From NCBI RefSeq assembly GCF_002154695.1, contig NZ_MTAV01000034.1, positions 1-64,000 on the forward strand: 64,000 bases of DNA, read 5' to 3'. Below, in pieces: positions 13,400 to 19,595 of the stretch (position 1 is its first letter; the number at the start of each line of letters is the position of its first letter). The position numbers and the translations under genes were made by a program. The stretch is from Nostoc sp. T09 (GTDB lineage: Bacteria > Cyanobacteriota > Cyanobacteriia > Cyanobacteriales > Nostocaceae). Below the pieces are notes generated by a model, which made no database searches, was not told where the DNA came from, and was given only the letters and a program-made list of their open reading frames with translations.

Positions 13400-13570
13400 C
13401 TCATTGTAGATGCGATGTCTTCTTTACCCTTCGGGAACGACTGCGTCGAACGAGACGCTGCGCGTAGCTTGCTTCCCCGTAGGGGTACGACAAGCCCTTC
13501 GGGTTCGGTAGTTGCTTCAAGTCGGGGAACCCGCCCAACGCACTACCTCACCGCTCCGCGTCTACGCCCC
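13400..13570. repeat. GC-rich palindromic intergenic repeat
   Basis: It is made of short hairpins, for example CCCTTCGGG, CCCCGTAGGGG and GACGCTGCGCGTAGC, in the style of repeats scattered through Nostoc-type genomes. Its composition differs sharply from the flanking AT-rich DNA. Similar pieces (TTCCCTTCGGGACGCTTC, GGCTCCGCCAACGCG) occur at 26805-26850. The boundaries are approximate. Confidence 0.6.
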
Positions 13571-13591
13571 ATAGTGAATTAAAATTGCAGG

Positions 13592-13801
13592 TCGATGCAA
13601 TCGCATTGTCACTCGATGCAATGGCATTGTTACTCGATGCAATCGCATTGTTACTCGATGCAATGGCATTGTCACTCGATGCAATCGCATTGTTACTCGA
13701 TGCAATCGCATTGTTACTCAATACAATCGCATTGCATGTCGATACAATCGCATTGTTACTCAATACAATCGCATTGCATGTCGATGCAATTGCATTGTCA
13801 A
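13592..13801. repeat. Tandem array of ten 21-bp units
   Basis: Ten consecutive units of exactly 21 bases fit the pattern TCGATGCAATCGCATTGTTA followed by C. Differences are mostly C/G at unit position 11 and T/C near position 18. Units 7 and 9 share a variant ending GCATTGCATG, so the array expanded partly by duplicating a two-unit block. Each unit contains CAATCGCATTG, a short inverted repeat. All three forward frames and one reverse frame stay open, giving repeats such as DAIALLL or NAIASSN, but no start with a ribosome-binding site supports translation. The function is unknown. Confidence 0.9.
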
Positions 13802-13845
13802 CCTCAAAATTATGGATAATCACCTGCAAACAATATTGTTCCCTG

Positions 13846-14856
13846 CTAATTCAACCCCGCAGAACGGCGATAAAGTAACCAGATAAATAACGGTGAACCC
13901 AGCAAAGCAGTGACGGAGCCTACAGGTAATTCTATGGCTCCCAATCTAGAGAGTAAATCGGCAAATATGAGTAACCATGCACCTGCTAATGCTGAAAGCG
14001 GTAAAACAAAACGGTGATCTGTGCCAACAATTAAGCGGACGCCGTGAGGAACTACAAGACCGACGAACCCAATCAAACCGCTGATGCTAACTGCACCTGC
14101 GGCGAGTAAAGTAGCAACACCACCAATTAAAAGACGCGATCGCGTTAATGATACTCCCAAACCCAAAGCCAAATCATCTCCCAAAGCCAACACGTTGAGC
14201 GATCGCGCCAGCAAACATCCGCCCAGCAATGCCACAATAATGTAAGGGCCAGTAGTGGTAATTTCTTTCCAACCTCGTCCATTTAGGCTACCAACCAGCC
14301 AGTTAAGTGCAATTTGAATTTGACCGTCTTCGGCTAACAGCAGTAATGTACTTTGTACTGCACCAAATAAAGAACTCACAGCCACTCCGCCTAAAATTAA
14401 GCGCTCAACCGCAATTCCTGACCCCGCACGGCCAAGGAAAATAACTATAGCCGAAGTCAAAATTGCTCCCACCCACGCCGCCAGAGGAATAGCAGCCGGG
14501 AAGATTTGCAACACTACCATAACTATGACAATTAACCCTGCACCTGCGGAAATACCTAAGATAAAAGGATCAGCAAGACTATTGCGCAACATTCCTTGCA
14601 GTAACGCCCCTGACATTCCCAAAGCTGCACCAACAATCAAAGCAGCAATAATCCGCGGGAGCCGCAAATCCCAGAGAATTGTCTGCTTAACCGGATCGCC
14701 TTGGTGAAGAATTGCTTGCCATAATTCACTTCCACTCAAAGGTACTGCGCCTTGCGAGAGGGAAAGCCCTAAGGTCACTACCAGTGCTGTAACTAAGAGT
14801 AAAATCGCCCAGAGTAGACGGTGTTTGGTAAAGATTGTCTGCAATGATTTATTCAT
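13846..14856 (-). CDS. FecCD-family ABC transporter permease
   Basis: A 336-residue inner-membrane permease of the iron-siderophore/cobalamin importer family. About nine or ten hydrophobic helices are visible, and the typical regions are present: LRLPRIIAALIVGAALGMSG near residue 65 and GLIGFVGLVVPHGVR, which contains the coupling helix contacting the ATPase. Length and motifs are complete. It should pair with the FecE-type ATPase at 7461-8237, but a tandem repeat array and two kinase genes separate them. No substrate-binding protein gene is adjacent. The 258 bases upstream show no recognisable cobalamin riboswitch or Fur site. They contain a 58-codon open frame on the minus strand (14904-15077) that I could not identify. 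Confidence 0.93.
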   Translation of the reverse strand: MNKSLQTIFTKHRLLWAILLLVTALVVTLGLSLSQGAVPLSGSELWQAILHQGDPVKQTILWDLRLPRIIAALIVGAALGMSGALLQGMLRNSLADPFILGISAGAGLIVIVMVVLQIFPAAIPLAAWVGAILTSAIVIFLGRAGSGIAVERLILGGVAVSSLFGAVQSTLLLLAEDGQIQIALNWLVGSLNGRGWKEITTTGPYIIVALLGGCLLARSLNVLALGDDLALGLGVSLTRSRLLIGGVATLLAAGAVSISGLIGFVGLVVPHGVRLIVGTDHRFVLPLSALAGAWLLIFADLLSRLGAIELPVGSVTALLGSPLFIWLLYRRSAGLN

Positions 14857-16494: not shown

Positions 16495-16995
16495 CTATCC
16501 ATTTCTCCATCGATTTATAGCTCTTAAATATGCTGCAACTGGAATTTGATAAACCTCAATAAAAATCCAAACAATAATTGCTAAATGTAACAGAAAAGTT
16601 AATATAGTCCAGATATATGGTATCCAAGTAATAAATTGATGTGGAGATGGAGGAAAATTGTAAGCCACAATGCCAATCAAAGTTGTGGGCAAGAGTATAA
16701 AAGCAATTGCTGCTAACCCATAGCCCCAACCTAATTCCACGCCTTCTAACTGGGCTTCTGTCCAACTAAAACCATTCCAAGACCAAACTAGCGGCGGTTG
16801 GCGGGAAGGCATCTTGATTTGCTGTTGTTCTAGGTTGACAGTAAAAATCTCTTGGCAGAAGTCACAAGCCATAGCTTCCATTAATGGCATCCGAGTAATC
16901 TTACCTACACGGCAGACTGGGCAAGGGTAAGCTCCTTGAGAGTCGAAAGATGTGGCTAAAATTTTAGAACGAGGCATCATAAAACCTAGTGGCAA
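16495..16995 (-). CDS. Small zinc-ribbon membrane protein, conserved hypothetical
   Basis: A 166-residue protein. Two CxxC pairs, C25-P-V-C28 and C44-D-F-C47, form a likely zinc ribbon. Two hydrophobic segments follow, about residues 88-110 (YGLAAIAFILLPTTLIGIV) and 122-147. The true start may be the second in-frame methionine cluster at M7 (MPRSKILATS); no Shine-Dalgarno sequence decides. The layout suggests an integral membrane protein with a cytoplasmic metal-binding head. The function is unknown. Codon use and HIP1-rich surroundings look native. Confidence 0.75.
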   Translation of the reverse strand: MPLGFMMPRSKILATSFDSQGAYPCPVCRVGKITRMPLMEAMACDFCQEIFTVNLEQQQIKMPSRQPPLVWSWNGFSWTEAQLEGVELGWGYGLAAIAFILLPTTLIGIVAYNFPPSPHQFITWIPYIWTILTFLLHLAIIVWIFIEVYQIPVAAYLRAINRWRNG

Positions 16996-17271
16996 TAATA
17001 ATGTGATTGGGCCGCCGCGGAATTTGACAAGAATGATGAATTGCTAGATTGTTTAGAGTTCATCAATATCCTGTTACCCATGACCCAAAAATAGTTGTAA
17101 GTTTATATAATTTCTACTGTTACAAGTCAGGAAAACGTCTTGACAGGCGCAATAGTACTGAGTTTAACCCTTTTTTAAGAGTTGTGGAGCTATTGACTCC
17201 ACCAACTGGGTCTGTTATCGTGACTTATATATAAGGATTACATCAAAATTATCTAGTTGCGTACACTAAAA

Positions 17272-17328
17272 ATGTTCAACAGCAAATCTTACTTTTATTT
17301 TTGGTTTAAGGCGGTTCACCGGCGGTGA
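17272..17328 (+). CDS. Aromatic-rich leader peptide, distal attenuator
   Basis: An 18-codon frame encodes MFNSKSYFYFWFKAVHRR then TGA. Seven residues are aromatic, six of them consecutive (Tyr-Phe-Tyr-Phe-Trp-Phe, codons at 17290-17307). It lies 404 bases upstream of the DAHP synthase gene on the same strand and runs straight into a hairpin set ending in a terminator. The last eight codons overlap the 5' arm of the antiterminator (17311-17320). No good Shine-Dalgarno sequence precedes the ATG, which is not unusual in cyanobacteria. By analogy with trp and phe leaders of other bacteria, it would act as a ribosome-stalling sensor of charged aromatic tRNAs. The frame is seen; translation is inferred. 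Confidence 0.75.
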   Translation: MFNSKSYFYFWFKAVHRR

Positions 17329-17363
17329 ATTAGTTTCCTAATGGAAACCGCCAGGTGAACCGC
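17311..17363 (+). promoter_or_regulatory. Antiterminator hairpin, distal attenuator
   Basis: GCGGTTCACC (17311-17320) pairs perfectly with GGTGAACCGC (17354-17363). Nested inside are GGCGGT (17321-17326) with ACCGCC (17347-17352) and GTTTCC with GGAAAC around a TAAT loop. The 3' arm shares bases 17358-17363 with the terminator 5' arm, so only one structure can form. A ribosome resting on the TGA at 17326-17328 would cover the 5' arm and favour the terminator. A ribosome held at the first aromatic codons would leave the arm free. Confidence 0.75.
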
Positions 17364-17384
17364 AGAGCAAACTCTGCGGTTTTT
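17358..17384 (+). terminator. Intrinsic terminator of distal attenuator
   Basis: AACCGCAGAG (17358-17367), loop CAAA, CTCTGCGGTT (17372-17381): a perfect 10-bp stem running into a T-rich tract (17380-17384, then another T run to about 17392). It lies upstream of the coding region with no gene ending before it, so it only makes sense as a leader terminator. Confidence 0.85.
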
Positions 17385-17503
17385 GTTTTTTTGGAGCAGG
17401 CGCACAGGTGGCGCGCCACCCGCTACGAATGAAATAAACAAGTTAATCCTGTTCGCTGTTCCCTGTTCGCTGTTCCCTTTTTTCTTTAAAGCATTTCATC
17501 GTC

Positions 17504-17566
17504 ATGATCTATTTCGGTAGTTGGTTTTATGGTTTTTACTTTTGGCCCAGAGCAAGTTCCGGGTAA
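17504..17566 (+). CDS. Aromatic-rich leader peptide, proximal attenuator
   Basis: A 20-codon frame encodes MIYFGSWFYGFYFWPRASSG then TAA. Nine of 20 residues are aromatic (four Phe, three Tyr, two Trp), all within codons 3-14. The stop (17564-17566) directly follows the antiterminator 5' arm (17555-17563), the same relation as in the distal leader. It lies 110 bases before the DAHP synthase start. No clear Shine-Dalgarno sequence precedes the ATG. An overlapping frame starting at 17529 (MVFTFGPEQVPGK) is much less aromatic and less likely to be the leader. The content of all three aromatic amino acids fits the first common step of their synthesis. Confidence 0.82.
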   Translation: MIYFGSWFYGFYFWPRASSG

Positions 17567-17604
17567 ATAGCGTCATGTCGATGATTTAGAACGCGCCCGG
17601 AACT
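17555..17604 (+). promoter_or_regulatory. Antiterminator hairpin, proximal attenuator
   Basis: AGTTCCGGG (17555-17563) is the exact complement of CCCGGAACT (17596-17604). The 3' arm overlaps the terminator 5' arm (17595-17602), so the pairings compete. The spacing between arms is 32 bases, close to the 33 bases in the distal module, supporting a shared design. Confidence 0.8.
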
Positions 17605-17630
17605 CTCAAGCTGAGATTCCGGGCTTTTTT
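17595..17630 (+). terminator. Intrinsic terminator of proximal attenuator
   Basis: GCCCGGAA (17595-17602) pairs with TTCCGGGC (17617-17624). Inside it TCTC pairs with GAGA around AAGCT, with one bulged C. Six Ts follow (17625-17630). This is a strong factor-independent terminator 45 bases before the DAHP synthase ATG. Confidence 0.9.
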
Positions 17631-17675
17631 GTTATCAACCTCACTCTCATAACCTCATACAAGGAGAATCTCACA

Positions 17676-18548
17676 ATGATTAATGCTCAACTCGCTGCTC
17701 AATCTCACCCTAGCCACCAAACAATCGTCAAACTCTCAGAAACAGTCAGCTTCGGAGGAGAAGAAATAGTAATTATCGGTGGTCCCTGCACAGTTGAAAG
17801 CTTAGGGCAAATGCAGACAGTCGCGCAAAAGTTAGCTGCTGCACCTGTACAAGCTTTGCGTGGCGGCGTCTACAAACCTCGCACATCTCCTTACGCTTTC
17901 CAAGGAATGGGAGAAGAAGGACTGGAAATTTTGGCAGCGGTGCGATCGCGTTACAATATCCCAGTTGTGACTGAAGTTATGTCAATTGCCCAAATTGAAA
18001 TAGTTGCCGCCCATGCTGATATGCTGCAAATTGGTAGCCGTAATATGCAAAACTTCGATTTGCTCAAAGCTTTGGGACAAGCCGGCAAGCCGATACTACT
18101 CAAGCGAGGACTGGCGGCGACAATTGAAGAATTCGTCATGGCAGCCGAATATATTTTGAGCCACGGCAATCCTCATGTGGTACTCTGCGAACGAGGCATT
18201 CGTAGCTTTGATAATTATACTCGCAATGTGCTGGACTTAGGAGCCGTAGCTGCTCTCAAGCAAATCACTCATCTACCCGTGATTGTAGACCCATCCCATG
18301 CTGTAGGTAAAAGGGAATTAGTAGCACCTATGGCTAGAGCTGCTGTTGCTTGTGGGGCAGATGGATTAATTATAGAGTGTCACCCAGAACCAGAAAAATC
18401 TGTTTCCGATGCACGTCAAGCACTATCTTTAGAAGATATGGTGAATCTAGTTAATAGTTTAAAGCCTGTAGCCGCAGCAGTTGGGCGGAATATCTCAGAA
18501 TCAATCGGGGTGGGTTTAAAACCTGCCCCGATTTTTTGTGCTGCTTAA
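17676..18548 (+). CDS. aroF: 3-deoxy-7-phosphoheptulonate (DAHP) synthase, type I beta
   Basis: A 290-residue enzyme condensing phosphoenolpyruvate and erythrose 4-phosphate, the first step of the shikimate pathway to Phe, Tyr and Trp. Motifs: GGPCTVES (metal-binding Cys) near residue 35, KPRTSPYAFQG near 67, IGSRNMQN, LLKRGL, CERGIRSF, PVIVDPSHAVGKRE (metal-binding His), IIECHPEP (Glu) and SVSDARQALS (Asp). It is the short beta form with neither an N-terminal ferredoxin-like/ACT domain nor a fused chorismate mutase, so no allosteric site is visible. AAGGAG at 17661-17666 supports the ATG at 17676. The two upstream attenuators suggest that control is by leader transcription. A weak hairpin at 18583-18612 follows the stop. 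Confidence 0.96.
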   Translation: MINAQLAAQSHPSHQTIVKLSETVSFGGEEIVIIGGPCTVESLGQMQTVAQKLAAAPVQALRGGVYKPRTSPYAFQGMGEEGLEILAAVRSRYNIPVVTEVMSIAQIEIVAAHADMLQIGSRNMQNFDLLKALGQAGKPILLKRGLAATIEEFVMAAEYILSHGNPHVVLCERGIRSFDNYTRNVLDLGAVAALKQITHLPVIVDPSHAVGKRELVAPMARAAVACGADGLIIECHPEPEKSVSDARQALSLEDMVNLVNSLKPVAAAVGRNISESIGVGLKPAPIFCAA

Positions 18549-19595
18549 ATTTTGCTGCCAAGCGATGTTTGAAAATATTAATTTTAGAGGCATAGGATGC
18601 TATGTCTCTAAATTGTGTCTAGATTTTACTGAGTATAAAGACTTAAACCACCGCTTTTCTTCATCTTGGCATTATCATCTGTTGTGCCTTTTGAAGAAAT
18701 AGTATCCTTGTGAACTTATAACTCTCAATCCTGCGCAATTTTCAATATAGCAATTGGATTATTGCGATCGCAGTCTGTATTACCAAGTAGGTATGCTAAC
18801 CGATTTCTACAGTTTGAAGAGCATGATGCTTTAGTTAACCTGCCTTTCCAAAAATTCTGCCATTAGCATTAAATCATAAAGCACAGTTCGCTTGCCTATT
18901 CCTAGCCTAGCGCCAAGATATAGCACTACGGATGAGTTTTGCTGTCTTGCATAGCCACTAAAAGATTGAAAGCGTATCAATAAAATACAAAGCAGCACTA
19001 AATACTTTGCCTTACAGGCAATTTATAGAGATTTCATCATTCTAAAGATAGGGAATTGATTTAAGCTTGGTCAAATAAACTATTCTTTATCCTAGCTTCA
19101 CAGATAATTGTAATTTTTTAATTAGCCTTTGTATAATCTAGAATTTCCTGATGATGCTTTAAATACTTGAAGTATTGAAGGGTGTATTTTATTTACTGTG
19201 CTACAACAGAATGAACGTCAGTCATGCTATTCATAGATATTGGTGTTGTAATTACCTGTATAATAGCTGCTTTTTATACTTTCAAGCTTAAAATACTGAC
19301 TTAATATTTTCTTGATAAAACCAGACATTATACTTAAAAGACTTAGTATTTGAGGTATTAGCAAGACTTTATACGAACTTTATGGACTAATGTATTGTTT
19401 TTACAATTACTTTATGTAAGTCCAGAGGAAATACTTAGATAATAAAAATATCTGAAACAATGAGGTTAACATGTCCTTGTTATTGCTAGTAATAGCAAAT
19501 ACAAATAAGCAAGTGAATGTTTACTACCACCCGAAAAGCTAATGTTTGCACCTCATTAGGACAGTTTGCAGATAGCAAAAACCTAGTAATTCTGG
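18549..19595. other. Long intergenic region, no gene seen
   Basis: About 1 kb of AT-rich sequence with stops in all frames. The only structure noted is an imperfect hairpin at 18583-18612 (TTTAGAGG-CATAG pairing with CTATG-TCTCTAAA) just after the DAHP synthase gene. It has no T tract. One GCGATCGC lies near 18766. Confidence 0.6.

Follow-up and report, generated by a model that had tools for sequence, protein, structure and literature searches.

The window (the whole 64-kb stretch of DNA that was analysed) carries a gene for a type I-beta DAHP synthase, preceded on the same strand by two units in tandem, each comprising a short aromatic leader ORF, an antiterminator and an intrinsic terminator (Table 1). 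The identical protein is present in the record of Nostoc sp. 106C, and the window comes from a Nostoc-like genome. The 290-aa protein aligns to NCBIfam PRK08673 from position 70 of the 338-position model onwards, and Pfam gave a match to the DAHP synthase domain, an overlapping one to NeuB and a third below cut-off; on these two results, no separate regulatory domain was recognised. Within the last codons of the gene (18500-18540), a GC-rich hairpin is followed by T's, so that the terminator of the gene may share sequence with the end of the reading frame. A region of short tandem repeats, with highly repetitive overlapping frames on both strands, lies elsewhere in the window (13548-13878).

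Two further DAHP synthases (356-aa open frames) are encoded on another contig of the same genome. An upstream aromatic leader was rejected for these two genes, for three chorismate-binding genes and for one prephenate dehydratase gene of that genome: the only aromatic frames upstream were those at L217 (no terminator seen by eye) and L001 (nt 743), and L216 was without upstream DNA.

Table 1. Positions of the putative attenuator features and of the DAHP synthase gene in the window
Feature	Position	Strand	Basis or remark
Promoter-like site, TTGACT-17-TATCGT, TG before the -10	17193..17221	+	consensus scan
Distal leader ORF, MFNSKSYFYFWFKAVHRR and stop; Tyr, Phe and Trp codons	17272..17328	+	sequence, homologues
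Last Trp codon, distal leader	17302..17304	+	11 nt before antiterminator arm
Distal antiterminator 5' arm, GGTTCACC	17313..17320	+	inside last leader codons
Distal antiterminator 3' arm, GGTGAACC	17354..17361	+	overlaps base of terminator stem
Distal intrinsic terminator, GAACCGCAGAG-CAAA-CTCTGCGGTTT and T tract	17357..17392	+	consensus scan, covariation
Segment 1, around the leader start; forms the predicted protector helix with segment 2b	17495..17515	+	limits approximate
Proximal leader ORF, MIYFGSWFYGFYFWPRASSG and stop; 9/20 aromatic	17504..17566	+	ATG 17504, TAA 17564-17566
Last Trp codon, proximal leader	17543..17545	+	12 nt before antiterminator arm
Proximal antiterminator 5' arm, AGTTCCGGG	17555..17563	+	directly before leader stop
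Segment 2b, after the leader stop; predicted partner of segment 1	17567..17588	+	limits approximate
Proximal antiterminator 3' arm, CCCGGAACT	17596..17604	+	also within terminator 5' arm
Proximal intrinsic terminator	17595..17630	+	hairpin 17595-17624, six T 17625-17630
DAHP synthase, type I-beta catalytic core only, 290 aa (proposed regulated gene)	17676..18548	+	sequence, domain matches

The original prediction, made from the letters alone, described the proximal unit: a 20-residue frame with nine aromatic residues, a stop directly after the 5' arm of an antiterminator, and a 3' arm overlapping a strong terminator with six Ts. All these elements were confirmed when the frame was re-read to the base and the arms and hairpin were located again. 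The distal leader ORF with its own attenuator (17272-17392) was absent from that prediction, and the unit described there is the second of two. The presence of all three aromatic amino acids in one leader, proposed for the proximal unit, is true of both.

The proximal leader was the most aromatic of the 1414 small frames (10-45 aa) in the window, and the only one among the top eight frames listed to have 9 aromatics in 14 residues (next best, 7). The distal leader (7 in 14) was joint second with two minus-strand frames. For comparison, 60 Markov-simulated windows gave 11 ORFs with at least 8 aromatics in 14, out of 111,048. A simple consensus terminator scan of the window flagged the distal terminator and did not list the proximal one, the stem of which is interrupted.

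The spacer that separates the distal terminator from the proximal leader (17394-17500) contains a direct repeat, ctgttcgctgttccct. The leaders start 232 nt apart in the window and about 140 nt apart in two relatives (L006, and L034 from Nostoc sp. 106C), the spacer being longer than in many relatives. The proximal leader of Nostoc sp. 106C (about 2829-2891 of its locus) ends in SSR, not in SSG as in the window, which implies an altered antiterminator 5' arm and is a possible natural weakening.

Of 137 distinct upstream regions, 116 have a sigma-70-like site (at least 8 points of 12) that starts 65-90 nt ahead of the distal leader; 50 base-composition shuffles gave 0.8 such regions on average and never more than 3. 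Because this promoter-like site is conserved, both units are probably transcribed from a start that precedes them, predicted from the site to lie near 17228 in the window. Among the outcomes named as refuting the attenuator was a transcription start beyond 17630; the position of the promoter-like site speaks against it, and no start site has been measured.

Conservation and covariation of the two units

Orthologues of the DAHP synthase were collected from 291 genomes of the window's order and from named records (best 80 kept), giving 164 loci. Some species are represented twice, the partial matches G196 and G212 were excluded, and three loci had no more than 102 nt of upstream DNA. Covariance models were built for the distal unit (R1, 50 loci and the window) and the proximal unit (R2, 62 loci and the window), and searches with them found the distal unit at 155 and the proximal unit at 159 of the 164 loci. 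Among the 161 loci with enough upstream DNA, 154 had both units, six had one (proximal only in L144, L150, L153, L163 and L167; distal only in L165) and one had none. An earlier pattern tally (both units in 124 of 159 distinct regions) was too strict and was superseded by these searches. At the single locus without either unit (L030), the protein match starts at residue 9; the adjoining sequence reads as the antisense of a mobile-element protein.

Across the phylum, 38 of 386 genomes carried an orthologue of at least 435 bits and all 38 had at least one unit; seven of them belong to the window's class and lie outside its order. R1 (E<=0.001) and R2 (E<=0.01) each matched in 37 of the 38, always upstream of the gene and on the same strand. 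No unit was found in three more genomes with a distant protein (321-333 bits). Outside the 38 orthologue genomes, R1 matched in one of 348 and R2 in none, and no unit was found before any other intact gene in the 386 genomes, with stricter filters that could miss weak relatives. The one exception (G094, contig C48, 72400-75000, locus L205) has a distal leader and a cut terminator running into internal remnants of a DAHP synthase gene and is, judged from this sequence, a relic of a decaying gene copy. In another genome (G582, contig C1, 3950326-3957522, minus strand), some 6 kb of DNA separates the two units from the 3' part (residues 73-290) of the DAHP synthase gene, a layout suggestive of a gene split by an insertion.

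The window's own genome gave a single significant match for each model; its other R2 matches (E 1.6-9.74) were taken as chance. In 46 loci, R2 gave a weak match to the distal unit as well (E 0.0002-0.01). The aromatic codons common to both units may explain these matches, and a duplication is not settled.

Loss of the aromatic run in homologous upstream regions would have refuted the original prediction; the run was instead kept. In 120 distinct distal and 130 distinct proximal leaders, the aromatic positions varied mainly to synonymous Tyr codons or to other aromatics, and the gaps within the aromatic run were mostly whole codons. The distal codon table was anchored on TGG, so that its W column is true by construction. 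The codon-level pattern and the codon-sized gaps favour translation of the leaders, an inference made without ribosome data. Six loci (L039, L040, L044, L060, L090 and L092) had no ATG nearby and an in-frame GTG after AAGGAG; a missing start codon in the proximal leaders of the first four could be excluded on these grounds.

The last Trp codon stands 11 nt from the antiterminator arm in 137 of 142 distal loci and 12 nt from it in 66 of 67 proximal loci, all pattern-found. The patterns demand TGG and a limited spacer, so the constancy of the distance is overstated. Given the size of the ribosome footprint, 11-12 nt is about the distance that lets a ribosome stalled at the last Trp codon leave the arm free.

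Covariation was assessed in a distal alignment of 51 sequences and a proximal one of 63, made up of the window plus 50 and 62 representatives, respectively, drawn from 136 pattern-found loci per unit; each structure was compared with 500 shuffles. The shuffles ignore relatedness and the orthologues are related, so the covarying cells are not independent events. In the distal antiterminator, 94.1% of the cells were paired and 6 of 11 pairs, with 26 cells, had changed on both sides; four shuffles reached this pair count, none reached the number of two-sided cells or the score, and every slid version scored lower. The distal terminator with its extended base was 99.8% paired, and its seven two-sided cells all fell at one pair; the core pairs hardly vary and thus carry little information. 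That one pair belongs to a position at which seven sequences have G for A in the shared arm: the terminator 3' arm has C for T in 7/7, and the facing base in the leader arm is U in six and C in one, with one sequence departing. As far as the alignment can tell, the distal leader arm, the shared arm and the terminator 3' arm are coupled three ways. A local distal TTCAC/GTGAA hairpin was rejected as covarying (97.6% paired, zero two-sided changes).

The proximal antiterminator was 95.0% paired, with two-sided changes in 3 pairs (8 cells) and 4 of 10 pairs invariant; 28 shuffles reached the pair count, two the cell count and none the score. Sliding it by +2 columns gave 12 two-sided cells in 3 pairs (24.5% paired, score 0.049) and by +3 columns 7 cells in 4 pairs (13.6% paired, score 0.032), against a score of 0.138 in the true register. 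Because of the slid controls and the invariant pairs, the proximal antiterminator rests mainly on conserved complementarity and less on covariation. The proximal terminator was 94.5% paired, with 30 two-sided cells, 26 of them at the closing pair; no shuffle reached its score and 20 reached its pair count. The covariation anticipated for homologous upstream regions was accordingly observed for antiterminators and terminators alike, and in these alignments the distal antiterminator has strong support from it, the proximal antiterminator less.

Predicted folding and protector helix

When the window RNA was folded, the start region of the proximal leader paired with the segment after its stop. 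Across 57 representative loci, the duplex of segments 1 and 2b had a mean of -15.7 kcal/mol, compared with -11.8 for cross-locus pairs and -9.9 for shuffles, and none of 10,000 permutations matched the loci's own duplexes, either over all 57 loci or over the 29 divergent ones. A locus's own partner was within the best tenth in 27 of 57 loci only. Six of the 29 divergent loci (L114, L118, L127, L130, L166 and L168) were no more than 1 kcal/mol from the shuffle mean, or above it. In L135, L138 and L164, strong pairing occurred in other registers, which argues for selection on pairing. A protector helix in the distal unit was rejected, as 1209 of 5000 permutations did as well; the distal antiterminator arms passed the permutation test (0/5000, 49 loci).

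Constrained folding was restricted to the window RNA, a single sequence, with assumed ribosome footprints. With the proximal RNA truncated at the antiterminator 3' arm (arm 3), the predicted probability of the antiterminator was 0.01 when no ribosome was present; it rose to 0.99 for a ribosome on the start codon and to 0.93-0.98 for stalls on the aromatic codons, and was 0.00 for a ribosome at the stop. The corresponding distal values were 1.00 with no ribosome, 0.87-1.00 for stalls as far as the last Trp codon, 0.50 for a stall one codon past it and 0.00 at the stop. The original prediction held that a ribosome at the stop masks the antiterminator and that a stalled one frees it; the geometry and the folding of truncated RNA both agree with this, within the assumed footprints. 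Since the proximal leader start pairs with the post-stop segment, folding predicts termination when that leader is untranslated, and this extra helix could serve as the equivalent of the trp 1:2 hairpin.

For full-length proximal RNA at equilibrium, the terminator was favoured in every ribosome state (terminator 0.76-0.99, antiterminator 0.00-0.22). The decision would therefore have to be kinetic, with the antiterminator forming first and persisting. Full-length distal RNA without a ribosome gave 0.85 for the antiterminator, 0.28 for the terminator base and 0.93 for its core; with a ribosome at the last Trp codon, the values were 0.68, 0.60 and 1.00, respectively. The distal terminator base was predicted at 0.17 after an early stall and 0.98 with the ribosome at the stop, and at the last Trp codon it fell from 0.60 to 0.10 if the footprint was made one base shorter. 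In this model, the distal terminator core is compatible with the antiterminator and coexists with it, the antiterminator invading only the base of the stem.

Proposed mechanism, alternatives and known systems

We propose that the two units are tandem ribosome-mediated transcription attenuators which respond to charged Phe-, Tyr- and Trp-tRNA and control the DAHP synthase gene (probability about 0.87, without any experiment). The attenuation logic of the trp/phe type, as first proposed for the proximal unit, is thus supported by the comparison of genomes, while leader translation, stalling, termination in vivo and the tRNA signal remain inferred in the absence of transcript, ribosome-profiling or reporter data. 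RNA polymerase would begin upstream of the distal leader. With Phe-, Tyr- and Trp-tRNA charged, a ribosome would reach the stop of each leader and cover the 5' arm of the antiterminator, and the terminator would form. Were any of these tRNAs short, the ribosome would halt on the aromatic run, the antiterminator would form and the polymerase would read on; even at the last Trp codon, the footprint would end just short of the arm. If the proximal leader were not translated, its start region would fold onto the post-stop segment, the antiterminator would be excluded and the polymerase would terminate. The distal unit would have no such fold-back when its leader is untranslated.

The two units may thus have opposite defaults without translation, the distal one letting the polymerase pass and the proximal one stopping it. 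Only stalling at aromatic codons would then open both, as a coincidence gate that separates aromatic starvation from a general failure of translation and keeps the basal level of a feedback-free DAHP synthase very low. This extension is tentative, and we consider the odds to be somewhat against it.

Other readings of the same features were weighed. Nascent-peptide sensing of the type named after TnaC, in which free Trp, Phe or Tyr would arrest the ribosome through the aromatic peptide and not through uncharged tRNA, would use the same RNA switch and would fit the conservation of the leader peptides. It is made improbable by the aromatic positions, which tolerate other aromatics (e.g. Y109/F11 and F104/Y12/W4), by the last Trp codon standing just before the arm in both units, and by the sign of the response, arrest by an excess of amino acid being wrong for a biosynthetic gene. 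The leaders might instead sense translation stress in general, the aromatic run serving as slow codons and any stall (antibiotic, cold) opening the gene. Any stall before the arm does free the antiterminator in the fold model; yet both leaders are dense in aromatic codons and stand ahead of the enzyme that opens aromatic synthesis, and the search of the 386 genomes, within the filters mentioned above, turned up no unit ahead of any other intact gene. We consider this no more probable than nascent-peptide sensing.

The released RNA or leader peptide could also act in trans, as a small RNA or in the manner of peTrpL, a leader peptide that reportedly does so, with the control of the downstream gene being incidental. 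Termination at either site would indeed release short RNAs and peptides. The strict linkage to one gene and the covariation of mutually exclusive structures argue for a switch in cis, although neither is a direct test, and we regard action in trans as very improbable. Least credible of all is a chance aromatic frame next to ordinary hairpins: small ORFs with 7 aromatic residues in 14 do arise by chance, but at least one unit accompanies the gene in 160 of 161 loci and the structures covary.

Attenuation through charged aromatic tRNAs remains our preferred reading. On sequence grounds, each unit has features expected of a leader-peptide attenuator: a short ORF rich in codons for the end products and an intrinsic terminator between leader and gene. 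An antiterminator sharing an arm with the terminator is also present, strongly supported in the distal unit and more weakly in the proximal one. The protector helix of trp-type attenuators has a counterpart in the proximal unit, by the 57-locus permutation test and the fold, and none in the distal unit. No Rfam family, the T-box included, matched 16500-18700 at E<=1.

The original prediction knew of no described cyanobacterial example, and none was found in our literature search, which was partial and covered subscription journals thinly. A 2016 survey, in the parts available, describes the attenuation mechanism in cyanobacteria as without reliable data (PMC4833913). The leader-peptide systems of a 2010 survey come from Proteobacteria and Actinobacteria, with hisS of Firmicutes added, and the word cyanobacteria is absent from its main text as far as this was accessible (PMC2965389). 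A 2005 paper gives database-predicted attenuators before aromatic operons, including the I-beta DAHP synthase of Thermus, Enterococcus and Thermoanaerobacter; the accessible part of its list has no cyanobacterial row among those listed (PMC1173090). The accessible portions of two further papers contain nothing on a cyanobacterial leader-peptide attenuator (PMC8632094, PMC7997468). Mechanisms of this kind are known; what is new, with priority not proven, is the occurrence in this phylum, the arrangement of two units in tandem for the same three amino acids, and a predicted protector helix in only one of them.

If the mechanism holds, it would provide a well-supported case of attenuation in cyanobacteria, covering the window's order as well as families of the same class that lie outside that order. 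The tandem attenuators would point to a means of controlling a DAHP synthase in which no regulatory domain is recognised, would make cyanobacterial leader-peptide attenuation testable with simple reporters, and would be relevant for engineering aromatic production in cyanobacteria of this kind.

Among known systems, the multivalent attenuator of ilvGMEDA in enteric bacteria (Proteobacteria) resembles the Nostoc leaders in having codons for several end products in one leader peptide; it is a single unit and serves branched-chain amino acids. The trp attenuator of E. coli is described by the segment scheme 1:2, 2:3 and 3:4. In contrast with trpL and pheL, the Nostoc units have their 5' arm within the final codons of the leader, and the predicted proximal protector helix is formed by the leader start and the post-stop segment. 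The likeness, judged from the part of the source available, is that trpL and pheL are leader peptides carrying the codons of the end product ahead of the regulated genes (PMC11802643). Closest in its target is the aroR leader (Phe-Tyr-Phe) of Corynebacterium glutamicum, an aromatic leader peptide which precedes the DAHP synthase gene aroF and acts by ribosome stalling; according to the accessible parts of the sources, this actinobacterial system has one leader and responds to limitation of Phe and not of Tyr, whereas Nostoc has two leaders with all three aromatics (PMC11802643, PMC4046766). A tandem arrangement is found in Salmonella mgtCBR, where two leader ORFs (mgtM and mgtP) lie in one leader RNA and each is part of an attenuator. 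In that system, as described in the part of the source available, the two leaders sense different signals (ATP and proline), whereas both Nostoc leaders carry the same three amino acids (PMC3641672).
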